From positions 1 through 60,768 of the forward strand of contig JAIRXS010000035.1 in NCBI GenBank assembly GCA_031268145.1: a stretch of 60,768 bases of DNA, in the 5' to 3' direction. The position numbers were made by a program, and so were the translations under genes. This document shows, one piece after another, positions 4,073 to 60,768 of this stretch. Source of the stretch: Candidatus Endomicrobiellum siamense. GTDB lineage: Bacteria > Elusimicrobiota > Endomicrobiia > Endomicrobiales > Endomicrobiaceae. Position 1 is the stretch's first letter. The number at the start of each line of letters is the position of its first letter. The notes beneath the pieces are model-generated. The model did no database searches and had not been told where the DNA came from. It was given only the letters and a program-made list of their open reading frames with translations.

Positions 4073-6724
4073 TTAACCTAAAAATTTTAAACTTTCATTA
4101 ATTTTTTCTAACTTTATATTTGCTTCATTGAGCTTAGACTTAACCTTTTCTATTTCTGAGTTCGGCGCTCTTTTTATAAAGTTATCATTTTGTAATTTTA
4201 TAGTAGTTCTCTCTATTTCTTGCTTTGCAAGAGCTACTTCTTTAGAAAGCCGCAGCTTCTCCTTTTCTATATCTATAAGCCCCTCTAAAGGTAAAAATAT
4301 TTCAAAACCACTGGTGATAGCAAGAGCAGAATTTTTTGGTCTTGTTATATTTTTTGCAAAAGTTATTGAACTTATTTTGGCAAGCTGCTTTATATAATTT
4401 TCATTATCCTTTACAACTTTTACTTTATTTTCGTCTAATACATTAAATAACGCCTCTATTTGACAAACAGGAGAAATATTCATCTCACTTCTAATAGTTC
4501 TTAAAGAAACTATTATTTCTTGTAAAGATTTCATCTCATCAATACTGCTCTTGTCATTTTCTTTTTGTTCATTTAAAAGTTTGCTTTCTGCAATTATCTT
4601 TTTTTCTCCTAATATTTGCCATATTTCTGAAGTTATAAACGGCATAACAGGTGAGAGTAATTGCAACATATTTTTAAGAACATATACTAATATTTTAAGA
4701 ACCTGTTTCCTCTCTTGTCTATTCTCAGATGTCATGCGTATTTTAGAAAGTTCAATGTACCAGTCACAATATTTTGTCCAAAAAAAGTCGTAAAGTTCTC
4801 TTGAAGCAGTGTCTATATTATAAGAGTCATAAGCTTTTTTTACTTTTAAAGACGTTTCAAAAAATTCTGCTAAAATCCACTTGTCTGAAAGTTCTACACT
4901 TGTCAACTCTTTTTCTAAATTTTCAATTCCTTCCAAATTCATTATTATAAATCTTGAAGCATTCCATATTTTGTTTGCAAAATTTCTTGCTGATAAAAAT
5001 GACTCTTCTGAAACTTGCATATCTCTTCCTGGCGCTGCTGCGCTTGCCAAAGCAAATCTTAAAGCATCTGTTCCATATTTATGCATAATTTCCCTAGGAT
5101 CAACTACATTTCCTAAAGATTTAGACATTTTTCCCCCATGCTTATCTCTTACAATACCGTGAATAAACACATCTTTATATGGCACTTCTTTCATGAACTC
5201 TAGTCCAAATTGTACCATTCTAGCTACCCACAAATATATAATTTCGTGTCCTGTAGCTAAAACAGAAGTTGGATAAAAATATTGTAATTCTTCATTGTTT
5301 CGATCGTCTTGCCAACCAAAAACGCTCATTGGCCATAAAGCAGAAGAAAACCAAGTGTCTAACACATCTTCGTCTTGAACAAAGTTTGTTCCATTACAAC
5401 AACTACAATGTGTTGGCTTGTCAAATGAAGCTATCGGCTTACAATTAGTTTTATTACCTTTTTCATCTATGCAATAATATACTGGTATTCTGTGCCCCCA
5501 CCATAATTGACGACTTATACACCAATCTCTTAAATTTTCAAGCCATAAGGTGTAAGGTCTTTTCCAAGACTCCGGATGAAAAACAGTGTTTTGCTCATTT
5601 ACTACTTCTATTGCTTTTTTAGACATTTCGCCAACATCTAAAAACCATTGTTCTGACATAAGAGGTTCTAAAGTCGTAGAACATCTATAACATTTACCAA
5701 CCTTATGGGCATAATCTTCAATCTTTTCTAAAAAATCCAAATCTTGTAAATCTTTAACTACTTTCTCCCTAGCTTCATTTATAGTTAAACCTTTATATTT
5801 TTCAGGAACATTTATCATTTTTCCGGTTATATCTGTTATTTCTATTATTTCAAGATTATTTCTTTTTGCAATTTCATTATCTGTAGTGTCACAAGCAGGT
5901 GTTACCTTAACTGCGCCTGTGCCAAAAGATTTATCTATTATATAATCTGAAATAATTCTAATCTCTCTGTTTAATAAAGGCAATACTAAAGTTCTACCTA
6001 CAAGTTCTTTATATCTATCGTCATCAGGACTTACTGCAACAGCAGTATCGCCAAGCATTGTTTCAGGACGAGTAGTTGCTACAACAATATGCTCATTGCT
6101 GTCTTTTAACATATATTTTATATACCATAAATGACTTTTTTCATCAGCGTACTCAACTTCTATATCAGAAAGAGCAGTACCGCATCTTGTACACCAATTT
6201 ACAAGCCTTTTACCTCTATATATTAACCCTTTATTAAAAAACTCTATAAAAGCTTTTTTTACAGCTTTAGACCGACTCTCGTCCATAGTAAAAGCAACCC
6301 TATCCCAATCTAAACCACAGCCCATCATTTTAAGTTGATTTAATATAGTATCGCCTGTTTCAGATCTCCATTGCCACATTTTTTCTAAAAACTTTTCACG
6401 ACCTAACTCATATTTGTTTATACCTTCTTTTTTTAAAATCTTTTCAACTACAGTCTGTGTAGCAATTCCTCCGTGGTCAGTACCAGGCACCCATAAAGTA
6501 TTGTACCCTTGAAGTTTTTTAAACCTTATTATGATGTCTTGTAAAGTAGTGTTTAAAGCATGCCCCATATGTAAAGAGCCAGTAATATTTGCAGGAGGTA
6601 TAACTATAGTAAATGGTTTTTTACTTTTGTCTACCTTTGCAGAAAATGTTTTATTTTCTATCCAATATTTACTCCACTTTCCTTCAACTAACTCAAAATT
6701 ATAAACTTTCTCCATATCTATCAC
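4073..6724 (-). CDS. valS: Valyl-tRNA synthetase
   Basis: 883 aa class I aminoacyl-tRNA synthetase. The HIGH-type motif HMGH is at residues 52-55 inside PPANITGSLHMGHALN. The KMSKS motif (GGKMSKSLGN) lies around residue 530, with the CP1 editing domain between. An Arg/Lys/Glu-rich coiled coil forms the last ~65 residues (LPLEGLIDIEKEKLRLSKEV and onward), as in bacterial ValRS. The start is GTG at 6724 with AGAGG 5 nt upstream; ATG at 6715 is the alternative. It is divergent from the SDR gene at 6856, sharing a symmetrical promoter region. Confidence 0.97.
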   Translation of the reverse strand: MIDMEKVYNFELVEGKWSKYWIENKTFSAKVDKSKKPFTIVIPPANITGSLHMGHALNTTLQDIIIRFKKLQGYNTLWVPGTDHGGIATQTVVEKILKKEGINKYELGREKFLEKMWQWRSETGDTILNQLKMMGCGLDWDRVAFTMDESRSKAVKKAFIEFFNKGLIYRGKRLVNWCTRCGTALSDIEVEYADEKSHLWYIKYMLKDSNEHIVVATTRPETMLGDTAVAVSPDDDRYKELVGRTLVLPLLNREIRIISDYIIDKSFGTGAVKVTPACDTTDNEIAKRNNLEIIEITDITGKMINVPEKYKGLTINEAREKVVKDLQDLDFLEKIEDYAHKVGKCYRCSTTLEPLMSEQWFLDVGEMSKKAIEVVNEQNTVFHPESWKRPYTLWLENLRDWCISRQLWWGHRIPVYYCIDEKGNKTNCKPIASFDKPTHCSCCNGTNFVQDEDVLDTWFSSALWPMSVFGWQDDRNNEELQYFYPTSVLATGHEIIYLWVARMVQFGLEFMKEVPYKDVFIHGIVRDKHGGKMSKSLGNVVDPREIMHKYGTDALRFALASAAAPGRDMQVSEESFLSARNFANKIWNASRFIIMNLEGIENLEKELTSVELSDKWILAEFFETSLKVKKAYDSYNIDTASRELYDFFWTKYCDWYIELSKIRMTSENRQERKQVLKILVYVLKNMLQLLSPVMPFITSEIWQILGEKKIIAESKLLNEQKENDKSSIDEMKSLQEIIVSLRTIRSEMNISPVCQIEALFNVLDENKVKVVKDNENYIKQLAKISSITFAKNITRPKNSALAITSGFEIFLPLEGLIDIEKEKLRLSKEVALAKQEIERTTIKLQNDNFIKRAPNSEIEKVKSKLNEANIKLEKINESLKFLG

Positions 6725-6790
6725 AAAGACCTCTTTAGGTTAATTTTTATTATAAACTCTAAATAATTTAAATATAAACACGTCTTTTAT

Positions 6791-6831
6791 ATTATACAAA
6801 AAAACATCTTAGATGTAATTTTTTGTATAAT
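6791..6831. promoter_or_regulatory. Symmetrical divergent promoter / long inverted repeat
   Basis: Arms attatacaaaaaa and ttttttgtataat flank an inner repeat catc-tta-gatg. Each outer end contains TATAAT pointing outward (plus strand 6826-6831 toward the SDR gene, minus strand 6796-6791 toward valS). This fits overlapping divergent promoters. The same sequence also folds into a stem followed by T's on the plus strand, so it could act as an operator or attenuator for the SDR-KAS-BioF operon. Confidence 0.5.
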
Positions 6832-6855
6832 TTTTCTATTCTATAGTGAGGGTTT

Positions 6856-7557
6856 ATGAAAAATAAAACAGTATTAATAACAGGAATATCAAAAGGAATA
6901 GGCAAAAATCTGGCAATTGCTTTTTCAAACGCAGGATGGAATGTTTGTGGCTGTTACAATAAAGATAAACCCAATTATAAGTTAATAAATTCTAAATTTA
7001 TAAAAGCAGATATAACAGTTTGTGAAAATGTAAAAGAATTAGTAGCAAGTACTGTTTTAGAATACGAAAAAATTGATTGTCTAATAAACAATGCAGGGAT
7101 ATCCAGTCCAGCAACAATACTAAAAATGGACAGCAATAAATGGTCTTCTGTTATAAACACAAATTTAACAGGCGTATTTTATACAGCAAAAACTGTTTTA
7201 AAAGTTATGTGCAAACATAAAAGTGGGACTATTATAAATATAGCTTCTATATCTGCATTTAAAACCCCCATGGGAGATGCAAACTATTCTGTTTCAAAAG
7301 CTGGACTTATAGCTTTTACAAAAAGCCTCTCAAGAGAAGCTGGACGCTTTGCAGTAACAGCAAATGTTGTTTTGCCAGGGTTTCACCTTACAAATATGGG
7401 TAGTAATGCCAGTAATCTTTATATAGACCAAGTTAAAAAAGAAAGTGTTTTAAATACAACAACAAACATTAAAGAATTTACTGATTTTATTATTTTTTTA
7501 TCAGGCCTTAAAACTGTATCAGGGCAAGTCTTTAATTTTGATTCAAGATTGATATAA
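6856..7557 (+). CDS. Short-chain dehydrogenase/reductase, FabG-like
   Basis: 233 aa classical SDR. The cofactor motif TGISKGIG is at residues 9-16, NNAG at 78-81, Ser131 in INIASISA, and the catalytic Tyr144-x3-Lys148 in YSVSK. Closest in style to 3-oxoacyl-ACP reductases (NADPH-dependent reduction of beta-ketoacyl-ACP). It is followed after 1 bp by a ketoacyl synthase and then by a BioF-type enzyme, so it probably reduces an intermediate in that dedicated pathway rather than acting as the housekeeping FabG. GAGGG lies about 4 nt before the ATG. Confidence 0.85.
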   Translation: MKNKTVLITGISKGIGKNLAIAFSNAGWNVCGCYNKDKPNYKLINSKFIKADITVCENVKELVASTVLEYEKIDCLINNAGISSPATILKMDSNKWSSVINTNLTGVFYTAKTVLKVMCKHKSGTIINIASISAFKTPMGDANYSVSKAGLIAFTKSLSREAGRFAVTANVVLPGFHLTNMGSNASNLYIDQVKKESVLNTTTNIKEFTDFIIFLSGLKTVSGQVFNFDSRLI

Positions 7558-50304: not shown

Positions 50305-52941
50305 TTATCTACCACCACCAGCTAATTTCGCAAGTTCATTCCAACCAGTTTTCCAATCATCTAAATAGCCTTGAGAGTTTGTAATCCCAGCAGCTTGGAA
50401 AATTTTTTGGTTTGTATCGGTATTCTTTGAAACCCAAGAGCCCGGTGTATTCGCAAGAGTTTCAATTTCTTCCCTCATAGCATTGAGTTGATCTCCAATG
50501 GCATATCCTTTATTGCCAGTAGAATCTAAACCAAATCCTATGGATTGACCTGCCCCGCTGCTGGTATTATATACTTCTAAACACATCTTGCCATCTATAT
50601 CATTTGTCACTACACCAGTTACCATTACTTTAGTACCAGTACCTACAGCACCTTTAAAAGCATCAAACATATCTTGATCTTCAACTTTTACAAATATTTC
50701 TTCACCTTCTTTTGGTGTTATACTATCTTTAAAACCAGATCCGTCAAACATGTTTACAGATTCAGGTGATAGTTTAATGTATACAGGTTTACCAGCCGCA
50801 ATTAAATCTTGAGCTGCTTTTTCGTCTAATACATTGCCATCTGCATCCGTAAACGATTTAGCTTCACCTATAACTGCAGGATCATAGTACTTTGTTTCTG
50901 TTTTCGTTATATCAGTTTCATGTTTTGTTTCAGACTTCATAGTATGTTTATTTGTGTAATCAACAACTGTAACGTCTTTATCATTCATTTTAACCTTAAT
51001 TGTAAATGTTGTAATGGTGTTTACAGTTAAATCATATTCTTGTTTGGTTGTTACTTCAGCTTTATATCTCCCTTTTCCACTCTTTTCATCAGCTAGGTCT
51101 TCTTCAGAAACTCCACTTTGGAACAAGCCCTTGCCTCTCTCAACAGTCTGCCCATTGTGAGTGTCAGTCATATGTTCCCTGCCTGCTACTTCGCCTTCAC
51201 CTTTTCTGTCTGTAATTGTAGTTGTACTGGTTATATTTCTCTTTGAAGTAAGATCTGGTTTATCTTCAGTAGACAATTGCACAGTAAAGTCTGACCTCAT
51301 ATTTAAAAGTGTATTGTATACGTTTTTTAAGCTTTGCCAAACTTTTTGCGATGCAGCTTTTGTACTTGGATCTTTCTCCTCTTGGGCAGCTAAAGCATTT
51401 ACAATTTCTTGAATAGTCGCATTTGGGTGTGCTCTTTTATAGTTTTCATAGGCTACTGCTGTACCAGTCACAGTAGACCCAGTAACAGTTCCAGAAGAAT
51501 CTGTCACTGGTTCTACATTTCTACTTAGAAACACAACTTTAAATAAAGCTTCATTATTTTTCAATTGTTGCCATGAATAATTCAAAGCCGTAACATCTCT
51601 GTTGTTTGCCAAAACCTCTCTTATTTCATCTTCTGTTACATTAGGTTTATTGATAACAGCATCTATCGCTTTGGCTTGAGCTTCTAAAACTTTAGCATTT
51701 TGAGTAGTACCGCTAGCTATAAACCTACCATCATCAGAATATATAGAAATCTTGCTTTGAGAAAATGGCTTAACATCATTATAATCTATAACTGAAGACA
51801 TATTTCCATTTGCAGCATAGTTAATTTTTTGTTTTAAGTGCGGGGCAGTTGACTTATCAGCAGGCTTGTAATAAACTTCTGTTGGTCTACCATTTAAATA
51901 AACTATCACTTCTCCTGTAGATAGATCAGTTTCGCTTATTTTTTGGCCAGTTTTTGTGTCGTATCTATAAGAAGTAGTCAGTTTTTTATCTGCTTCTTTA
52001 ACTTGAGCTACAGCACTTGGTAAGGAAGTACCGCTGCTCCTATTAAAAGTTGAAGAACTTAGAGTACTTTTCCAAGTATATGCTGGCTGACCAGCTGGTA
52101 TTACATTTCCTGCTTCATCTTTATACTTATCTGTGCCATCACTAAATTGCGTAACCGTGACCTCAGTACCAGTAGTTTCAGTCTCGCCAACCTTTATATA
52201 TTGTGTAGGAACAGTTGTTCCATTTCCATATATATATTCACCTGTAGTCCTTCCTAGATAATCTACAGTGCTCAATTTTTTACCTGAAGGGCTAGAAAAT
52301 GTTGCCGAAGTTTCTTGTTCATAATCACCTAAACTTAACTGAACCTCTGCTCCATTTCCAGATTTAAAACCTGCAACTAAAAATTGCTCTACAGTTGACT
52401 TTTGCCCTGTTTGATCTGTCCCTGTTAATGTAGCTATTTTACCAAGCGCATCGTTGAAACTGGCTGTTTCACTTGAACCTTTTATTCCAAAAGCTGCTAT
52501 AAGATAGTCACCAAAAATAGCGTTTGGGCTGTTCTTTTTGTAATTCTCCCATGCTTTAACATCTAAATCATTTAAGGTTATAGAAGTCCACTTATAAGTG
52601 CCGCCTTCATCATCTAATTTTTTAACAGCTCCTTTTTCTACACCATTATAGTAAAGTCTTACTGACTGATCAGCGCCTATAATAGCACTTAATTGGCCAC
52701 CATCAAATTTATAAACTGAAGTTACACTTCCTATTAAATATTTTAAAGAAGCATTAGAATAAGCTTCCTCAAGTTTTTGTTGAGCATCTGAACTCTGCTT
52801 GTACTGCTTATTTAGTTCTAAAACATTTTCTGGGCTAGTCTTTTTTGCATCAAAACCATCTGTAGCAGCTGCAATAATTTTACCAGTATACCCAAAAGAC
52901 AACATTAAAGCCAAGATTAAACTAACTACTTGTTTCCCCAT
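50305..52941 (-). CDS. Large secreted protein of unknown function, 878 aa
   Basis: I do not recognise a family. A signal peptide covers residues 1-26 (SLILALMLSFGYTGKIIAAA). The rest is Thr/Ser/Gly-rich, with few Cys. There are internal repeats: KAWENYKKNSPNA (129-141) and VAYENYKRAHPNA (497-509), and DEAGNV..AGQPAY near 275 and DADGNV..AGKPVY near 720. YD-type motifs such as YLGRTTGEYIYGNG and YDTKTGQKISETD recall Rhs/YD repeats. No sorting-type C-terminus. GGAGG precedes ATG 52941, and its base composition is less AT-rich than its neighbours. Probably an abundant surface or matrix protein. Confidence 0.7.
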   Translation of the reverse strand: MGKQVVSLILALMLSFGYTGKIIAAATDGFDAKKTSPENVLELNKQYKQSSDAQQKLEEAYSNASLKYLIGSVTSVYKFDGGQLSAIIGADQSVRLYYNGVEKGAVKKLDDEGGTYKWTSITLNDLDVKAWENYKKNSPNAIFGDYLIAAFGIKGSSETASFNDALGKIATLTGTDQTGQKSTVEQFLVAGFKSGNGAEVQLSLGDYEQETSATFSSPSGKKLSTVDYLGRTTGEYIYGNGTTVPTQYIKVGETETTGTEVTVTQFSDGTDKYKDEAGNVIPAGQPAYTWKSTLSSSTFNRSSGTSLPSAVAQVKEADKKLTTSYRYDTKTGQKISETDLSTGEVIVYLNGRPTEVYYKPADKSTAPHLKQKINYAANGNMSSVIDYNDVKPFSQSKISIYSDDGRFIASGTTQNAKVLEAQAKAIDAVINKPNVTEDEIREVLANNRDVTALNYSWQQLKNNEALFKVVFLSRNVEPVTDSSGTVTGSTVTGTAVAYENYKRAHPNATIQEIVNALAAQEEKDPSTKAASQKVWQSLKNVYNTLLNMRSDFTVQLSTEDKPDLTSKRNITSTTTITDRKGEGEVAGREHMTDTHNGQTVERGKGLFQSGVSEEDLADEKSGKGRYKAEVTTKQEYDLTVNTITTFTIKVKMNDKDVTVVDYTNKHTMKSETKHETDITKTETKYYDPAVIGEAKSFTDADGNVLDEKAAQDLIAAGKPVYIKLSPESVNMFDGSGFKDSITPKEGEEIFVKVEDQDMFDAFKGAVGTGTKVMVTGVVTNDIDGKMCLEVYNTSSGAGQSIGFGLDSTGNKGYAIGDQLNAMREEIETLANTPGSWVSKNTDTNQKIFQAAGITNSQGYLDDWKTGWNELAKLAGGGR

Positions 52942-53254: not shown

Positions 53255-53596
53255 TTATCTTATTATAACAATTTTTGTATTCTTAGAACTACTGCCCTTA
53301 ATAGCCCACATATATACGCCGCTTGCAACATATTCACCTTGATCATTTTTGCCGTCCCAATTTAACATTGAACCATAATCCCATCTCAGCTTACGTACAA
53401 TTTCCCCAGAAACATTATAAATATCTATCTCGCCACCTTCTATAGGCAATTCTGCAAAAGTAATACCGCCAGTTAAAGTCCCTTGAGAACCAGCCTTACT
53501 TTCAGGAATCCACGGGTTTGGATATACTTTTGTAGCACTAGCAAAAGAAAAAAACATAAAAATAAAAAAAACAGAGAAATATACTTTCTTTATCAT
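53255..53596 (-). CDS. Stand-alone T9SS-CTD/FlgD-like sorting-type domain protein
   Basis: 113 aa. A signal peptide (about 21 residues) is followed directly by a single domain: KVYPNPW, GEIDIYNVSGEIVRKL, WDGKNDQGEYVASGVYMWAI and the ending KIVIIR. This is the pattern of the Por-secretion C-terminal sorting domain / FlgD Ig-like fold normally found at the end of large exported proteins; here it is the whole mature protein. Its ATG overlaps the stop of the barrel-TPR gene (ATGA). Confidence 0.75.
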   Translation of the reverse strand: MIKKVYFSVFFIFMFFSFASATKVYPNPWIPESKAGSQGTLTGGITFAELPIEGGEIDIYNVSGEIVRKLRWDYGSMLNWDGKNDQGEYVASGVYMWAIKGSSSKNTKIVIIR

Positions 53597-55752
53597 CTCA
53601 TTTTCTCCAATGCTCTTTTGGCTTCCATCTTGTCAGGATTATAACTAAGAGATTTCCTTAAAAGTTCCGAAGCCTTATTAAAATTTCCCTTACTATAAAA
53701 ACGCATACCTTCTTCATAGACTACTTGCGCAATCTCTTCTGAAATTCTTTTATATTCAAATGAAGCAAGTGAATTTTCTTTATTATATTGCAAAGCTTTT
53801 TTATATTCCTTTAAAGCTTGCTCAAAATTATTTTTCTTTGAAAATTTAAGACCTTCTTTATAATACATATCAGATAAATCATAACTTAATGTTGCAATTT
53901 GTTCTTGGGATTTTTTAGAATAATCTGAAAAAGAATACTCATCTGCAATTCCTTTGCTTATTTCAAAGTATTTCATTGCATTGATAAAGTCACGTTCTTG
54001 AGAATATTTTAAAGCCTTATCAAAATTATGTTCTAGCTCTTTCATCATTTTATTTTGTAAGATTATTGACCTTCTATTTTTTTCATAACGCTTGATTTCT
54101 TGAGAACTATTTTTAGCTTTATCTATCAAATCTCTCACATCTCTTCTCTGCGGACTAGCAATAAAAACAGCTTCAAAATATATTATTGATTCTTCATATT
54201 TACCTTCTTCAAACAATTCTATACCTTTTTTGTATAATTCTTGGATTTTGCCAGCAACAACTTTTGAAAGCTGGTTATCTATATTTGCTATAAGATTTTG
54301 AGCAGATTTATTTTTTGAATCTATATTTAAAATAAAACCTAAAGATTCTCTAGCATGCACTAGATCCCCTTTTTTATAAAATTTTTGAGATCTATTCCAT
54401 AAATATTCTATTCTTGCTCTGTTTTTATTTCTTTCCATTTCGAGCTTAACTTGATTTGAATATTCATCTGATTGTTCCAATCCTTTTTTTGCAAGTAAGC
54501 TTCCTGGATCCATATCTAAAACTTTATTGAAATTTCTCTTTGCTTTTACTATATCACCTTTTTTTAAAGCATTGTTAGCTTTTTGCATATACCCGTTAAT
54601 AATTTTGGCATTATATAAATCAACATTTGAAAGCTTGTCATTAATTTTTCTTAAATACATTTGCGATTTTACATGTCCTGGATAAACAGAAAGAATATCG
54701 CCAAACGCTTTTCTCGCCGCTATGTAATCTTCTTCATTATATAAATTGACAGCTTCTCTAAAATGATTTTGCATATAATAATCGTAAGCTGTTCTCTCTG
54801 AGCTAAACCCACCTAAAGCTAAACTTAAAGTTACACTGTGAGTACCTCCAAGTTTACTTTGTGGAGTATACGAATAATCTAAATTTAGATTCTGAAAATC
54901 TACACCAAAACCAAATCTTGCGTCCGTGTCAAAAGAATCTTCAGTAAGTTTTAAACCAGCTCTCAAATCTAAAAAATAAATTGGTTCAAAAGATGCACCT
55001 ATAGAGAAAAAATCTCCTGAAAAAAGCTGGTTGTTATAATCTAAGGTCACTTTGAAATTATAAAAATCATCTTCTTGATATGCAAGACCAACTGCTAAAC
55101 ACTGAGGCAAATCGAATTCTTCACTTAAAAATTTAAGTTTAGTACCAAAATTTTTTAAAACTACACCTAAATAAAAATTATCTATTTTAGAAAGGCTTAA
55201 AACTGTACCGACATCAAGTGCTACTGCTTCTGTTTCATAAGAACACAAAGCGCTTCTTATAACTTTTAAATTGACTCCTACGCCCCCGTAAAAAAATTCT
55301 ATAGGGACTGTCTTTTTTAAATCTACTGAATAATTTAAAATAAATCCTAAATCGTTTGAAGTCTCTTCTTTTATCGGGTTTCCAAGACTGTCCACATAAT
55401 TTATATCTCCATACCCTGCATACATAGCAGACAATCCAATATTACCAATTGCCGTAGGAAATTGAGCGCCTATATAATTATACTGTATGCTTGAAAATAT
55501 TGATGTATTATTTACAGAGGCAATAACTCTATAACTGCCTATACTAACAGCTGGGTTTAAAACAACAGCGGTAGGGTTGCCCGATAAAAGAGCACAACCG
55601 CTATCCCCCATCGCAATAGTAACAGGATTTGGATTATATGCTAAGATCTGACCTGACACAGAGCCTGCTGCTGCGGCCAAACAACAACATGGATAATATG
55701 TAAGAAGAAATATTAAAAGGAATATAGAAGTTATTTTTTTGCAAATTTTCAA
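53593..55752 (-). CDS. PorV-like outer-membrane barrel fused to TPR repeats
   Basis: 719 aa. Signal peptide to about residue 28. Residues ~30-320 have a UPF0164/PorV-type start (TIAMGDSGCALLSGNPTAVV, LNPAVSIGSYR) and barrel strands (GLSAMYAGYGDINY, FGFGVDFQNLNLDYSY). From ~325 there are about eight TPR-like units (AVNLYNEEDYIAARKAFGDI, GIELFEEGKYEESIIYFEAV, GMRFYSKGNFNKASELLRKS). PorV shuttles cargo in type IX secretion; the fused TPR would lie in the periplasm. Coupled to the small sorting-domain gene. GAGG lies 12 nt before ATG. Confidence 0.78.
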   Translation of the reverse strand: MKICKKITSIFLLIFLLTYYPCCCLAAAAGSVSGQILAYNPNPVTIAMGDSGCALLSGNPTAVVLNPAVSIGSYRVIASVNNTSIFSSIQYNYIGAQFPTAIGNIGLSAMYAGYGDINYVDSLGNPIKEETSNDLGFILNYSVDLKKTVPIEFFYGGVGVNLKVIRSALCSYETEAVALDVGTVLSLSKIDNFYLGVVLKNFGTKLKFLSEEFDLPQCLAVGLAYQEDDFYNFKVTLDYNNQLFSGDFFSIGASFEPIYFLDLRAGLKLTEDSFDTDARFGFGVDFQNLNLDYSYTPQSKLGGTHSVTLSLALGGFSSERTAYDYYMQNHFREAVNLYNEEDYIAARKAFGDILSVYPGHVKSQMYLRKINDKLSNVDLYNAKIINGYMQKANNALKKGDIVKAKRNFNKVLDMDPGSLLAKKGLEQSDEYSNQVKLEMERNKNRARIEYLWNRSQKFYKKGDLVHARESLGFILNIDSKNKSAQNLIANIDNQLSKVVAGKIQELYKKGIELFEEGKYEESIIYFEAVFIASPQRRDVRDLIDKAKNSSQEIKRYEKNRRSIILQNKMMKELEHNFDKALKYSQERDFINAMKYFEISKGIADEYSFSDYSKKSQEQIATLSYDLSDMYYKEGLKFSKKNNFEQALKEYKKALQYNKENSLASFEYKRISEEIAQVVYEEGMRFYSKGNFNKASELLRKSLSYNPDKMEAKRALEKMR

Positions 55753-55789
55753 AGTTAGCCTCTAGTGCAGATACAAAAAAAGAAAAGCT

Positions 55790-56482
55790 TTATTTTTTTG
55801 AGGATGGTATAAACTCAAAGCCTAAACCAAAGACAGTTACGATATGTTTTGACCACGGGCCTAAAATATGACGGAGGTTTTTTATATGTGTGTCAATCGT
55901 TCTGGTGGCAACTACTGCATTGTATTCAAAAACATTTTCTAAAATAACTTCTCTACTTAAAACTACATTAGGGTTAGACATAAGCATATATAGCAGATCA
56001 AATTCTTTTGGGCGTATAGAAATTTGTTTATTATTTAAAGTTACAGTCTTTGAATCTAACAACATTATAATTCCATCATGTTCTATTTTTTTGACTCCTT
56101 CTTTTCTGCGCACTCTACGCAGTAAAGATTTCACTCTTGCGATAAACTCTCTATTGCCAAATGGTTTTGTTATATAATCATCTGCACCATGTTCAAAACC
56201 AAGAACTTTAGACGTTTCTGTAGACTCAACCGTCAACATAATAATTGGAATATTTTTTGTTATAGGATTAGTCCTAAGCATTCTGCTAAGCTCAAGACCT
56301 CCGACACTAGGCATTCTAATATCAATAACCGCAAGATCAGGCTTTGATTTTAAAATTCTCTTATAACCCTCATCTGTATCTTTACAAGTAATAACCATGA
56401 AACCTTCATCTTCAAGAACCTTCTTAAGCAAAGTCGTTAAAGCAGCATCATCATCAACAATAATTATTTTACTTTCTATCAT
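55790..56482 (-). CDS. OmpR-family response regulator, orphan
   Basis: 230 aa. Receiver domain with acidic D10-D11-D12 and phospho-acceptor D54 (AVIDIRMP), followed by a winged-helix output domain (RPKEFDLLYMLMSNPNVVLS, TRTIDTHIKNLRHIL). No histidine kinase in the window. It lies 37 bp upstream of the PorV-like gene on the same strand, so it may control that surface locus. GAGG precedes ATG. Confidence 0.92.
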   Translation of the reverse strand: MIESKIIIVDDDAALTTLLKKVLEDEGFMVITCKDTDEGYKRILKSKPDLAVIDIRMPSVGGLELSRMLRTNPITKNIPIIMLTVESTETSKVLGFEHGADDYITKPFGNREFIARVKSLLRRVRRKEGVKKIEHDGIIMLLDSKTVTLNNKQISIRPKEFDLLYMLMSNPNVVLSREVILENVFEYNAVVATRTIDTHIKNLRHILGPWSKHIVTVFGLGFEFIPSSKK

Positions 56483-56549
56483 TATTGATAACTCCTCAGA
56501 AGATATTATGCTTTAGATTAACATAAATTAAAGTAAGATACTTCATAAC

Positions 56550-56587
56550 TTTACTGCTCTGCCAAAACTTTTTGGCAGAGCAGTAAA
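56550..56587. repeat. 18-bp perfect hairpin after the two-TM protein gene
   Basis: tttactgctctgccaaaa (56550-56567) and ttttggcagagcagtaaa (56570-56587) form an uninterrupted 18-bp stem with a 2-base centre. It lies 6 bp after the stop of the 56594 gene on the minus strand. No U-run follows in either direction, so it is either a non-canonical terminator, an RNA-stability element or a palindromic binding site. Confidence 0.6.
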
Positions 56588-56593
56588 AACCTA

Positions 56594-56881
56594 TTATTCT
56601 TTTACTTCTAAGGAAACTACAATGCTACTATTAAACTTTGCAACAACAAAATTATAAAGCCATGCTACAATTATAGCACCAACCGCCATAATAACTGTGT
56701 AGAGAACAACAAAAACTGCCCAAGATAGTAATCTTGCTCCAAATCCAAGACCTGCAGCTAAATCTGTAGGGAAAAAGAAAAATGTAAATAAACCAATGGT
56801 TGCTCCAAGGATTGCAAATACAATAGGAAAAACTTTAAGAACTGAGGAAACTTGAACTTTCTTTACACCGTAAAGAGACAT
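56594..56881 (-). CDS. Small two-TM membrane protein
   Basis: 95 aa. Two hydrophobic segments (residues ~15-40 and ~50-75) separated by a Gly-rich loop, ending ALYN-type sequence AWLYNFVVAKFNSSIVVSLE, which resembles a common small membrane protein family (DUF3566-like) with a YNLVAKWVGG-type end. Function unknown. GGGGG lies 5 nt before ATG. Between fba and the response regulator. Confidence 0.7.
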   Translation of the reverse strand: MSLYGVKKVQVSSVLKVFPIVFAILGATIGLFTFFFFPTDLAAGLGFGARLLSWAVFVVLYTVIMAVGAIIVAWLYNFVVAKFNSSIVVSLEVKE

Positions 56882-56973
56882 TTTATCCCCCTTATGTTTT
56901 ATTACACGCTAAACTACATGGACAAATTGTAATAGAATATTTTTTTCTTGTCAAACTTAATAATACAAATTTT

Positions 56974-57969
56974 TTACTTTAAAGCATACCCCTTTTTCAT
57001 ATCGTCAAGAGTTTTTGGAGTATAATCACCGGCATGTCCTGCAGTTTTAAAAGCTTTCATTTTAGAGATTATAAGATTTGTTAAAGCCATTCTTGCTGGT
57101 CCCAAATAATCCCTAGGATCAAACTTTTCTGGAGTTTCGGTAAAGACCTTTCTTATAGCTGCCGTAATTGCAAGTCTGCCATCAGTATCAACATTAATTT
57201 TCGATACGCCAAGTGTTATTGCTTCTTGTAAACTTTCCATTGGCACACCAGTAGCACCTGGCATTTTACCACCATATTTATTAACTTCTTCTATTAATTC
57301 TTTTGGAACTGAAGATGCTCCATGTAGTACGATAGGGATACTTATTAAAGACCTAATCTCTTTTAAAACATCAAAAGCAAGATTTGCCGCGCCTTTAAAC
57401 TTATATGCCCCGTGAGATGTCCCTATAGCAATAGCTAATGAATCAACACCTGTTTCATCTACAAACTTTTTAGCTTCTTGAGGATCTGTTAAATGAATTT
57501 TCCCTGAACCTACACCGTCTTCTATACCCCCGAGAGTACCGATTTCAGCTTCAACAGAAACGCCTCTTGCGTGAGAGTACTCCACAACTGAACGTGTAAC
57601 TTTTACATTATATTCATAAGTTGAAGCTGTCTTGCCATCTTCCATTAAAGAGCCATCTATCATAACAGAAGAGAAACCCAAGTCTATAGCTTTTATAACA
57701 GACTCTAAAGAGTTCCCATGATCCAAATGCATCGCAACAGGGATTTCAGGATTTTCTATAACTGCTGCTTTCATTAAATAGCCTAGATACGTAAAATTAG
57801 AATACTTTAAAGCCCCTCTACTTGCTTGGATAATCACAGGCGACTTTGTCTCTTTTGCAGCAGCCATAATAGCCTGAATTTGTTCCATATTGTTTACATT
57901 GTAAGCACCTACACCATAACCGCTTTTTTTTGCTTCTTCTAAAATTTGTTTACCTGGTACTAACGCCAT
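56974..57969 (-). CDS. fba: Fructose-bisphosphate aldolase, class II
   Basis: 331 aa. Zinc ligands in VAMHLDHGNSLE, EAEIGTLGG, AIGTSHGAY and PIVLHGASS; substrate block KINVDTDGRLAITAAIRKVF. Splits fructose-1,6-bisphosphate in glycolysis. AAGGAGG lies 4 nt before ATG. It follows accA by 18 bp in reverse order: accA is upstream of fba? On the minus strand accA (58995-57988) reads first and fba second, with an 18-bp gap. Confidence 0.95.
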   Translation of the reverse strand: MALVPGKQILEEAKKSGYGVGAYNVNNMEQIQAIMAAAKETKSPVIIQASRGALKYSNFTYLGYLMKAAVIENPEIPVAMHLDHGNSLESVIKAIDLGFSSVMIDGSLMEDGKTASTYEYNVKVTRSVVEYSHARGVSVEAEIGTLGGIEDGVGSGKIHLTDPQEAKKFVDETGVDSLAIAIGTSHGAYKFKGAANLAFDVLKEIRSLISIPIVLHGASSVPKELIEEVNKYGGKMPGATGVPMESLQEAITLGVSKINVDTDGRLAITAAIRKVFTETPEKFDPRDYLGPARMALTNLIISKMKAFKTAGHAGDYTPKTLDDMKKGYALK

Positions 57970-57987
57970 TTTGCCTCCTTTATTTCT

Positions 57988-58995
57988 TTAAAGTCTTTTT
58001 TTTTTTTTTTTGGGGTATTTGTTTTTAACTACTTTTTTAGGTTTATCTTCGTAGATCCCCATATTTCTAAATTTTAAATATCTTTCTTCAACAATTTTTC
58101 TTTTTGGCATAGTTTCATAAATTGCAAGATACTTATTTAAAGACGTTTTTATATTTAATGCGGTTTTTTCGTAATCATAATGAGCACCTCCTAAAGGCTC
58201 TTTTATAATTTCGTCTATAACCTTTAAGCTCAATAAATCCTTTGCAGTTAATTTCATCGCAGAAGCCGCTTGAGAAGCTTTTGAACCATCTCTTAAAAGT
58301 ATTGCAGCACAGCCTTCTGGAGAAATAACAGAATAATACGCATTCTCTAAACATAAAACTATATTTGAAACACCTATCCCTAGAGCACCACCTGATCCTC
58401 CCTCACCTATAACTACACTTATTATAGGCACTTTTAAATCAGACATATCTCTTAAATTTCTAGCTATGGCTTCAGCTTGACCTCTTTCTTCCGCTGCAAT
58501 ACCTGGGTAAGCTCCAGCAGTATCTATAAAAGTTATGATAGGCCTATTAAACTTCTCAGCTATTTTCATAATTCGCATTGCCTTTCTATACCCTTCAGGA
58601 TGGGCCATGCCAAAATTTCTATCCATGTTTTCTTCTAAAGTTCTACCTTTTTGATGCCCTATTACTACAACAGATTTTCCATTTATTGAAGCTATACCAC
58701 ATAAAATTGCTTTATCATCACCAAAAACTCTATCACCAGAAAGCTCAATAAAATCTTCAAAGATAAAATTTACATAATCTGTAAAATATGGCCTCTGAGG
58801 ATGCCTTGCAATTTGCACCCTTTGCCAAGCAGATAAAGAATTATAAATCTTTTGTTTCAATTCGTTTTTTGTCTTTTCTAAATCTTTAATTTGGTCAGAT
58901 AAATCTATGTCTCCATTCTGTACAGCCTTTTTTAACGCCTCTATTTTTTTATCCATGTCCACTATAGGATTTTCAAAATCAAAAGTTATTTCCAT
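57988..58995 (-). CDS. accA: Acetyl-CoA carboxylase carboxyltransferase subunit alpha
   Basis: 335 aa. Family blocks [58 protein letters not shown] and [17 protein letters not shown] are intact. Partner of AccD (23935). The last codons run through 16 consecutive A's on the minus strand (57996-58011 as T's), giving a Lys-rich tail [10 protein letters not shown] and a stop. Such a tract is prone to slippage, but only the last few residues would change. GAGG precedes ATG. Confidence 0.96.
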
Positions 58996-59036
58996 TTGTC
59001 CTCACTAATCTTGTAAATGCTACTTAAAAAGTCTAT

Positions 59037-59750
59037 TCAAAACTTCCCAGAATAAGTTACCCTTAAAATTCTTTCATTTGCAATCCTTGTTATTGTAGTA
59101 TCGTCTTTGCCAAAACAATCTCTTACAATACAGTCCACATCAAAATATTCAGTCAAGGATAATTTCAGTCCACAATTAAGCCTTGCATTTGGAAAATAAT
59201 CTATATTGTCATATTCTGTCATAAAATACACAACTTCGTTAAAAAGGGGAAATATTGTATTTATAAATCCATAAACCTTAACTACAGAAAAATCATTGAC
59301 ATTAGCTCCAACATTTAACATAAATCCGTCAAAAATAAGCTCTCTGCCTAACACAACATATAGACCTCTTGCCTTTTGAACAAAGCCACTTTTTAAACTA
59401 GTATCAACAAAATAGCCTTGGCCACTATAACCTATAGCAATACCTGGCAAAGTCATACTTCCTTCATAAATTTCAAATTTAATATTTAACGTAGGTATAG
59501 CAGCTTTAATATTGTTATCACTAATAAGTCTATCTATTTCCCAAAACATTCCTATATCCAAAGGTTTAAAAACGCCAAAATCAATATTAGCAATCACATT
59601 ACCATTAGAAAAACATCTAAACCAAAAATCATAAGAGCCATAATTCAATAATCCATGCGTAGGGGTATCTATTACATATGTTTTTGCAGCAAAAGAAAAA
59701 ACTGGAAAAATAAAAACTACTAAAAATAAACTTACTATGTTTTTTAACAT
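59037..59750 (-). CDS. Predicted outer-membrane beta-barrel protein
   Basis: 237 aa, no named family. Signal peptide (LKNIVSLFLVVFIFPVFSFA) followed by about ten alternating strands (FWFRCFSNGNVIANIDFGVF, GIAIGYSGQGYFVD, GFMLNVGANVND, RLNCGLKLSLTEYFDVD) and a C-terminal Phe (YSGKF), as in YjbH-/porin-like barrels. ATG 59750 with GGAG 7 nt upstream is preferred over a start at 59792. It follows the shikimate-kinase remnant; terminates 41 bp before accA. Confidence 0.65.
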   Translation of the reverse strand: MLKNIVSLFLVVFIFPVFSFAAKTYVIDTPTHGLLNYGSYDFWFRCFSNGNVIANIDFGVFKPLDIGMFWEIDRLISDNNIKAAIPTLNIKFEIYEGSMTLPGIAIGYSGQGYFVDTSLKSGFVQKARGLYVVLGRELIFDGFMLNVGANVNDFSVVKVYGFINTIFPLFNEVVYFMTEYDNIDYFPNARLNCGLKLSLTEYFDVDCIVRDCFGKDDTTITRIANERILRVTYSGKF

Positions 59751-59933
59751 TAACAAACTCCAAAATATTTTGCCTGATATACAGACAAACAATCATATCT
59801 GCATTTAAAGACAATCTACGTCCGCTTAGAAAATTACGCGTTAACTTATATCTACTAGCAAGTATAAATATCTTTGCAGCCTCTCATGCTAGTATATATA
59901 GTATCACATATTAATTGTATATATCAACGTCTG

Positions 59934-60146
59934 TCAAATAAAAATAAGGGCATTTAATCTGTCTATAAATCCTAAAACAACCTCGTGTACAGAAAGACCA
60001 TCTATATTAAAAGACAAATCACAATTTGCATACGCTTCTTTTCTAATATGTAAAAATTCTTTTATTTTAGCTAAAGGATTTTTACACATCAAAAGAGGAC
60101 TTAAAAGTTGTTCGACATTACTAGGCAGATCATATGGAGACATCAA
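59934..60146 (-). pseudogene. Shikimate kinase C-terminal remnant
   Basis: Residues read SPLLMCKNPLAKIKEFLHIR, then KEAYANCDLSFNIDGLSVHE, which follows the lid and C-terminal helix of AroK. The P-loop, the shikimate-binding DR and roughly the first 110 residues are absent. No ribosome site is seen. It is a decayed fragment, unless the frame starts at 60146 as an independent short peptide. Confidence 0.6.
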
Positions 60147-60154
60147 ATTTTCAA

Positions 60155-60286
60155 AATTTTATAATCTTTATTTTCTATCGATAAAGCTATGAGTGAACCT
60201 AATGTTTTTTGATACCTAATGCCAGGAATTTTTTTACTACTATAATATCTTCATTCTCATAAATTACTTCTATTGTCTCTTTCATA
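60155..60286 (-). pseudogene. Frameshifted small-gene remnant
   Basis: On the minus strand ATG near 60286 reads MKETIEVIYENEDIIVV, then stops after KKFLALGIKKH. One frame over it continues IPGIRYQKTLGSLIALSIEN to a stop near 60155. The start resembles DUF104-type antitoxins (xIIEVIYENG), but the match is too short to be firm. It may be a broken gene with a shift in an A-run. Confidence 0.3.
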
Positions 60287-60301
60287 CAATATAATACTAC
60301 T

Positions 60302-60768
60302 TCACTTTTGTATAGCGATTTTTCTAATTTGATTTTTACCGGAATCTGTTTTTATACTTATAAAATATATTCCAGGGGCTACTTTACTCCCATTTTCATT
60401 TCTCAGATCCCACCTAAGTGTCTTCCTGTTTAACTCTTCTTGCAGTTCCAATATACTAAAATTTCTTACAAACTCACCATTTATATTATATATCCTAGCT
60501 TCTAACCTTGACACATCTTGCGAAAAATTTGCTATTTTTACATAACTATCTACACTAAGTGATACTGGATTTGGACATATTAAAATATTTTTATTTTCAG
60601 GATCTACTAGCACTGGAGGGTTTGGTTTTGGTGGGATCGATGGTGACCAGTCTGTATCTGCATCTAAATATAATCTCCCATGCCCAAACATATTATTAAC
60701 ACTTCCTCCCATTTGTATAACATGCTTTGTTGTTAAAATTCTTTTAACTTCTTCTGGCTTTGTTAAAT
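60302..60768 (-). CDS. Subtilisin-like protease C-terminus with T9SS-type sorting domain, partial
   Basis: The open frame runs to the window edge, so the N-terminus is outside. It begins LTKPEEVKRILTTKHVIQMG and reads NNMFGHGRLYLDADTDW, the closing helix and GxGRL-type end of an S8 subtilase. A Pro-rich linker (SIPPKPNPPVLVDP) leads to the sorting domain: ILICPNPVSLS, IYNINGEFVRNF, GSKVAPGIYFISI and KIAIQK. The domain matches that of the 53255 protein in order and spacing. Probably an exported surface protease. Confidence 0.75.
   Translation of the reverse strand, partial: LTKPEEVKRILTTKHVIQMGGSVNNMFGHGRLYLDADTDWSPSIPPKPNPPVLVDPENKNILICPNPVSLSVDSYVKIANFSQDVSRLEARIYNINGEFVRNFSILELQEELNRKTLRWDLRNENGSKVAPGIYFISIKTDSGKNQIRKIAIQK

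Follow-up and report, generated by a model that had tools for sequence, protein, structure and literature searches.

In the type IX secretion system (T9SS), the C-terminal domain (CTD) of a secreted protein binds the loops of PorV inside SprA and is thought to exit together with PorV (PMC10994853). According to PMC11285876, the system is restricted to Bacteroidota and perhaps further phyla of the Fibrobacterota-Chlorobiota-Bacteroidota (FCB) group, and is absent elsewhere. PorA is an interaction partner of PorV that functions upstream of PorXY-SigP (PMC7712824), and SigP binds PorX and the promoters of some T9SS genes (PMC4800418). Here we describe a 60,768-nucleotide contig, referred to as the window, from Candidatus Endomicrobiellum siamense, a termite-gut member of the Endomicrobia (phylum Elusimicrobiota, outside FCB). 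It encodes a PorV-type outer-membrane barrel fused to a long TPR domain (PorV-TPR), followed by a 113-residue protein composed of a T9SS-type CTD (the tag, or bare CTD), and the same genome carries a homologue of SprA. Type IX parts as such are already known, and finding them in Elusimicrobiota conflicts with the distribution given in PMC11285876. The accessible literature covering both T9SS and Elusimicrobia, with subscription journals and preprints outside its scope, held no report of the system in this group, and the word "secretion" is absent from the main text of a 2024 Endomicrobia genome study (PMC11257099). Nor did we meet regulators, PorV-TPR and a bare CTD as a joined unit in those parts of the literature.

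The likeness to the T9SS (PMC10994853) comprises a SprA homologue, a PorV-type shuttle of the same fold, CTD-tagged proteins and a PorV-like gene beside that of SprA. In contrast, PorV here has a long TPR arm, the SprA-like protein has about 1770 residues against 2403 in the solved chain, and GldL, GldM and GldN were not detected in searches that lacked a valid positive control. Unlike the uncleaved CTDs of PorZ and PorU from Porphyromonas gingivalis (PMC11285876), the tag has no passenger domain and is paired with a PorV-TPR gene. Type B CTD proteins and PorP-SprF-like shuttles (PMC12618676) also form gene pairs of a tagged protein and its own shuttle, whereas here a type A-like CTD goes with a PorV-like shuttle. 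A likeness of size exists to Fjoh_0547, a CTD protein of 112 residues that leaves similarly little room beyond its CTD. The features of the window that concern us are:

53255..53596, minus strand: stand-alone T9SS-type CTD protein of 113 residues, a leader of about 22 residues (by eye) followed by the CTD
53593..55752, minus strand: PorV-type outer-membrane barrel with a long TPR domain, 719 residues (NF033709, TPR_2)
53593..53596, minus strand: ATGA stop/start overlap between PorV-TPR and the CTD-only gene (translational coupling), read from the sequence
55790..56482, minus strand: OmpR-type response regulator (REC and Trans_reg_C; PF00072 and PF00486 above cut-off)
60302..60766, minus strand: putative subtilase cargo, a C-terminal tail truncated by the contig end with a type A CTD last (TIGR04183, PF18962)

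PorV-TPR scored 99.7 bits against the PorV/PorQ family model NF033709 (cut-off 90), with PorQ second, and matched TPR_2 at E 4e-20. PorV headed its fold-search list, and the barrel portion conforms to the 14-stranded FadL/PorV type. The response regulator lies 37 bp upstream on the same strand, and the ATGA overlap recurs, by coordinates, in loci L016, L017 and L026 (L, C and G denote loci, contigs and genomes), with which the window groups in the PorV-TPR tree. An earlier reading of the sequence alone, the first-pass annotation, had recognised this PorV-like barrel fused to TPRs, its coupling to the 113-residue gene and the adjacent response regulator, all of which were confirmed; UPF0164, a label tried for the same protein, stayed below its cut-off (17.3 bits against 21.4). 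The predicted model of PorV-TPR has a pTM of 0.39, and its placement of the barrel relative to the TPR arm is untrustworthy. A second PorV-TPR type adjoins FHA and/or PP2C genes, usually together with a response regulator (L036 at 5397-7467, L080, L087, L089 and L102).

The tag scored above the cut-off for FlgD_ig (PF13860, 28.9 bits against 27) and below those for T9SS type A (TIGR04183, 21.8 against 23) and PF18962 (15.8 against 27); its orthologues in L084 and L085 passed TIGR04183 with 27.3 and 25.3 bits. In sequence-profile comparisons it lies nearer to the CTDs of PorZ and PorU, which stay uncleaved, than to FlgD, the PorZ match spanning the whole domain to the final residue (E 5.6e-9), and the fold search agreed with this likeness, with every Z below 8. 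The outcome that the first-pass annotation had named as counting against its T9SS reading, a FlgD hook-cap or unrelated Ig fold, is unlikely. FlgD identity is disfavoured by the equivalog models, the best of which gave 25.7 bits against 230 (NF005176), as well as by the profiles; FlgD was also missing from the 50 fold-search rows listed, which does not exclude it. The claim that the protein consists of nothing but this domain holds for the mature form, given the leader. Ratios of nonsynonymous to synonymous substitution rates (dN/dS) between the window's tag and those of L016, L017 and L026 were 0.10-0.15 at dS values of 0.74-0.99, near saturation, and comparable values of 0.13-0.15 were obtained for PorV-TPR. 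The regulator, PorV-TPR and tag of the window are under purifying selection.

The genome-wide search for SprA/Sov proposed at first pass found a SprA homologue in the C39 operon of the same genome. This operon encodes a 391-residue protein whose end aligns with CTDs below every CTD cut-off, a 583-residue PorV-like protein (60.1 bits, below the cut-off of 90, with a weak TPR match) and a 1769-residue SprA-like protein that matches TIGR04189 over its whole length at E 4.9e-36. A profile built from 13 homologues of the latter in the class gave SprA as the sole PDB match (E 1.9e-28), and homology to the translocon is well supported by these comparisons. None of 40 genomes exceeded the equivalog cut-off of TIGR04189, and because it was not reached we call the parts SprA-like and the system type IX-like. 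The type IX-like reading put forward at first pass is supported, as is its suspicion of a phylum other than Bacteroidetes, since the named relatives of the locus are all Endomicrobia.

SprA-like matches were present in 107 of the 119 genomes sampled from the phylum (96 of 102 good genomes; 44 of 48 genera), a count that includes three short fragments (G019, G055 and G079) and some others that are split or cut by contig ends. The 12 genomes without a match all belong to the window's family, eight of them to its genus. Near SprA, nine of 25 loci encode an M6-protease-like protein with a CTD-type end (M6 profile-checked in L043, L045 and L050). As a separate observation, LptF and/or LptG adjoins SprA in 22 of these 25 loci across the phylum (L043-L051, L053, L054, L067-L072 and L074-L078; exceptions L033, L052 and L073), often together with ComF, GAPDH and PGK. 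Substitution of LptD by the SprA-like gene is disfavoured: LptD (PF04453) matched in three genomes of the same genus, above cut-off in G004 and G014 and below it in G010, and G010 and G014, which are 75% and 53% complete, lack SprA. The matches above the Pfam cut-off (G004:C47:10153-10608 and G014:C4:9738-10307) are contrary to the reported absence of LptD from all Endomicrobiaceae (PMC11257099).

The adjacency of shuttle and tagged protein extends across the class. A PorV gene lies on the same strand within 1 kb of 24 of 55 listed CTD matches (0.34 expected under random placement) and within 3 kb of 26, and on the opposite strand within 3 kb of none. These 55 are the matches listed for the 14 genomes common to the PorV and CTD searches and fall in 12 of them (none listed for G035 and G038); G029, G039, other single-draw genomes and TPR-only PorV rows were excluded, and for the richest genomes only part of the candidates was scored in both searches. 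The window pair is one case of this frequent pattern, and the bare tag is a special form of it. Among the named Endomicrobia loci, two of which (L022 and L023) derive from one isolate, the tag directly follows PorV-TPR in 10 of 11 (exception L018). Because of this position and the dN/dS of 0.10-0.15, the CTD-only gene is not a chance reading frame. Further tags follow PorV-TPR in L084, L085, L086, L091, L092, L093 and L100, and follow the FHA/PP2C-associated type in L087 and L089; loci with the bare form come from six families of the order (f1-f6). Among open reading frames of at least 40 residues on both strands, no bare tag was found in L018, L036, L080, L088, L090, L099 or L102. A large CTD protein takes the place of the tag in L079 and L101, and L097 (G090) keeps the tag beside a PorV-TPR frame without its barrel part. 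The PorV-TPR/tag module occurs in six of 13 genomes with long SprA frames and in none of 22 with a SprA fragment or no match, and decay is visible within the genus, where G017 has stop-interrupted PorV-TPR pieces and no SprA match.

In relatives, the PorV-TPR and CTD-only genes stand last in an operon that also encodes signalling proteins. Kinase, regulator, sigma factor, PorV-TPR and tag occur together in nine loci (L019, L020, L021, L022, L024, L025, L084, L085 and L092). A histidine kinase with HAMP, HisKA and HATPase domains is encoded upstream of PorV-TPR in L018-L022, L024, L025, L084, L092, L093 and L100; the kinase of L085 is a kinase/receiver/GGDEF hybrid and that of L097 has HisKA and HATPase only. 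A homologue of the OmpR-type regulator comes next, likewise upstream of PorV-TPR, and some relatives add a response regulator-GGDEF protein (profile-checked in L022). Sigma-70 family factors with sigma domains above cut-off were identified in 11 distinct loci (L019-L022, L024, L025, L084-L086, L091 and L092), although only region 2 reached its cut-off in L086; no kinase was identified within the stretch examined in L086 and L091. Loci L023, L094, L095, L096 and L098 duplicate named ones and were excluded from counts. In the window, L016, L017 and L026, regulator, PorV-TPR and tag are retained, and neither a sigma gene nor a kinase lies between the equivalent neighbours (the rest of the window's genome was not searched). 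The gene neighbourhood of the relatives points first to a regulatory pair, ahead of the competitor, lid or tether that the first-pass annotation had suggested for the sorting-only protein.

The operon recalls PorA with PorXY-SigP (PMC7712824, PMC4800418), where a sigma factor and a two-component system are likewise linked with PorV and a small CTD protein. PorA differs by an additional FimH-like domain and by arriving at the surface independently of the machinery, and porX and porY are separately encoded. SigP is an extracytoplasmic function (ECF) factor, whereas the factor in the relatives is of the general sigma-70 type and the window's regulator is OmpR-type by its domains (PF00072 and PF00486), so that a PorX-type identity was rejected. 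PorX is not known to be an OmpR-type regulator. With neither an ECF factor nor a PorX-type regulator at these loci, the resemblance would be one of function only, in the sense of working alike.

Based on anatomy and gene order, we infer a signalling role for the pair. In the reading that we favour, with a likelihood somewhat short of even, a tag-loaded PorV-TPR would signal to the kinase by way of its TPR arm, leading regulator and sigma factor to set export or envelope genes. Homologues are in place for a type IX-like route, consisting of a giant SprA-like outer-membrane channel, several PorV-type shuttles and CTD-bearing secreted proteins bound by the shuttle, which would together form a working system. 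The window pair would differ from an ordinary shuttle and cargo in that the 113-residue CTD would serve as a dedicated ligand on the surface loops of its own PorV-TPR, probably uncleaved, as in PorZ, PorU and PorA. A barrel with 14 strands should have its two termini on the periplasmic side, which would place the TPR arm there, able to touch periplasmic or inner-membrane partners. The loading state of PorV-TPR would be passed by this arm to the membrane histidine kinase, and regulator and sigma factor would adjust expression of export or envelope genes; in this way the tag may let the cell monitor or adjust its own export. Such a one-domain tag with one shuttle and, in relatives, a two-component/sigma circuit would be a compact case for sensing export across the outer membrane. 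A wider proposal, which we advance tentatively and consider unlikely to hold in full, is an ancestral motorless type IX-like system in Elusimicrobiota, with PorV-TPR proteins as receptors and the bare sorting domain as the ligand that reports export flux to the kinase-regulator-sigma circuit. The SprA homologue in 107 of 119 genomes, together with PorV/CTD pairs, would imply a core translocon of greater age or wider distribution, and its power source becomes a question if the motor is truly missing.

Several observations weigh against the receptor reading. The pair occurs without a sigma gene in the window, L016, L017, L026, L093 and L100, L018 keeps kinase, response regulator and PorV-TPR without tag or sigma gene, and the sigma factors of L022 and L084 score best with general sigma-70 models, not with ECF factors like SigP. 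The second PorV-TPR type lacks the tag in three of five loci (L036, L080 and L102) and has it in L087 and L089. The presence of a small CTD protein does not in itself imply that export is being reported, because P. gingivalis PorA is surface-exposed in porK, porM, porT, porV and sov mutants, and the 112-residue Fjoh_0547 is reportedly secreted even in the absence of SprA or PorV (PMC7712824). The SprA-like protein scores 123.5 bits, below the equivalog cut-off of 200, no SprA domain was found by Pfam in the two SprA-like proteins scanned, and the match of the PorV-TPR profile to PorV in the PDB is no better than E 7e-4. The Fisher test on six of 13 against none of 22 ignores shared ancestry and genome shrinkage, and the two genes were sought in different draws, which do not cover every genome for both. 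Among the 13, G090 carries a SprA frame interrupted by a stop in addition to its barrel-less PorV-TPR frame.

Motor and sortase genes were likewise not detected, in searches without a valid positive control. In the window's genome (G000), GldL and GldM gave no match. Across 40 genomes the best E values were 0.049 for GldM and 0.002 for GldL, none above cut-off, and control genomes also matched only below cut-off (2 and 9 of 14). GldN (PorN) was matched in none of the 40 at E up to 1 and the C25 sortase (PF01364) in none, and no control genome matched either. None of the controls was known to carry GldL, GldM or GldN, and matches to NF033707 fell within CTD regions. The proposed search for PorK/L/M/N thus returned no GldL, GldM or GldN, against controls that were weak or silent.

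The alternative that survives best, possible in our view though doubtful, is that the bare CTD permanently fills a specialised PorV-TPR, in the manner of PorZ and PorU within the PorQ/PorV complex, and serves exported proteins as a lid, tether or assembly factor of an attachment complex, the regulators controlling only its expression. It shares its parts with the receptor reading; the output alone differs. The bare CTD has its best relatives in PorZ and PorU, whose CTDs are uncleaved, and PMC11285876 describes CTD retention for PorA, PorU and PorZ alike. The tight coupling of the tag to a single PorV would suit such a subunit, and the SprA operon, with its CTD-like end, PorV-like protein and SprA, shows the pattern with weaker matches. 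However, the tag has no passenger domain to deliver or cleave, no C25 sortase was detected (no control matched), and G023 (99% complete) and G004 have long SprA frames without the pair, which is therefore not needed for the channel.

We consider it improbable that the CTD protein is the remnant of a large surface protein beside its dedicated shuttle, with little function of its own. Such an origin would be consistent with G025 (L079), where a 1464-residue fn3 protein with a CTD of the same subtype replaces the bare tag downstream of a PorV-TPR that is sister to that of L091. On the other hand, with the bare form in six families and a dN/dS of 0.10-0.15 the tag is too conserved for a relic, and the tree is silent on the direction of change. 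It is similarly hard to credit a system unrelated to T9SS, in which a FadL-type barrel with a TPR arm would act in outer-membrane assembly (BAM-like) or transport and its Ig-like partner would only resemble a CTD: the PorV family model was passed, with PorQ second, PorV came first in the fold list, CTDs beside PorV are frequent across the class, and a SprA homologue lies in the same genome. A FlgD hook-cap or unrelated Ig domain is very improbable, given the PorZ match over the entire domain, the equivalog scores far below cut-off and the reported lack of flagellar machinery in any Elusimicrobiota genome (PMC11257099).

Elsewhere in the window's genome, CTD matches were found at C4, C44 and C39 and in a fragment at the end of C8, in addition to the window pair. 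The tail at 60302-60766 scored above TIGR04183 (31.6 against 23) and PF18962 (30.6 against 27) and below PF13860 (26.6), in agreement with the first-pass view that it ends in the same kind of domain as the 113-residue protein. Its designation as a subtilase comes from its likeness to the 721-residue C44 protein, which passes both Peptidase_S8 (88.6 against 21.8) and TIGR04183 (24.4 against 23), whereas the piece in the window contains no peptidase domain itself. PF18962 was above cut-off at C4 and C37. By eye, the CTDs of the tail and of the C4 protein (L037, 6395-7858) are nearly identical, which suggests a recent duplication; the C4 protein, whose CTD is the most similar to that of the tail, has no peptidase domain in Pfam. 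PorV-like matches occur at five places, above cut-off at C37 and C44 and also at C39, C9 and C8; the one at C9 adjoins a lipoprotein-like open reading frame with a weak TPR match, and the one at C8 adjoins FHA, PP2C and response regulator-like genes.

Two further genes of the window were noted, both on the minus strand. A 251-residue protein without a Pfam or NCBIfam match is encoded at 59037-59792, adjoining a carboxyltransferase gene. Downstream of the CTD-only gene, 50305-52941 encodes an 878-residue protein without a Pfam match, homologues of which occupy the equivalent position in L016, L017, L018, L022, L023, L025, L026, L097 and L098.

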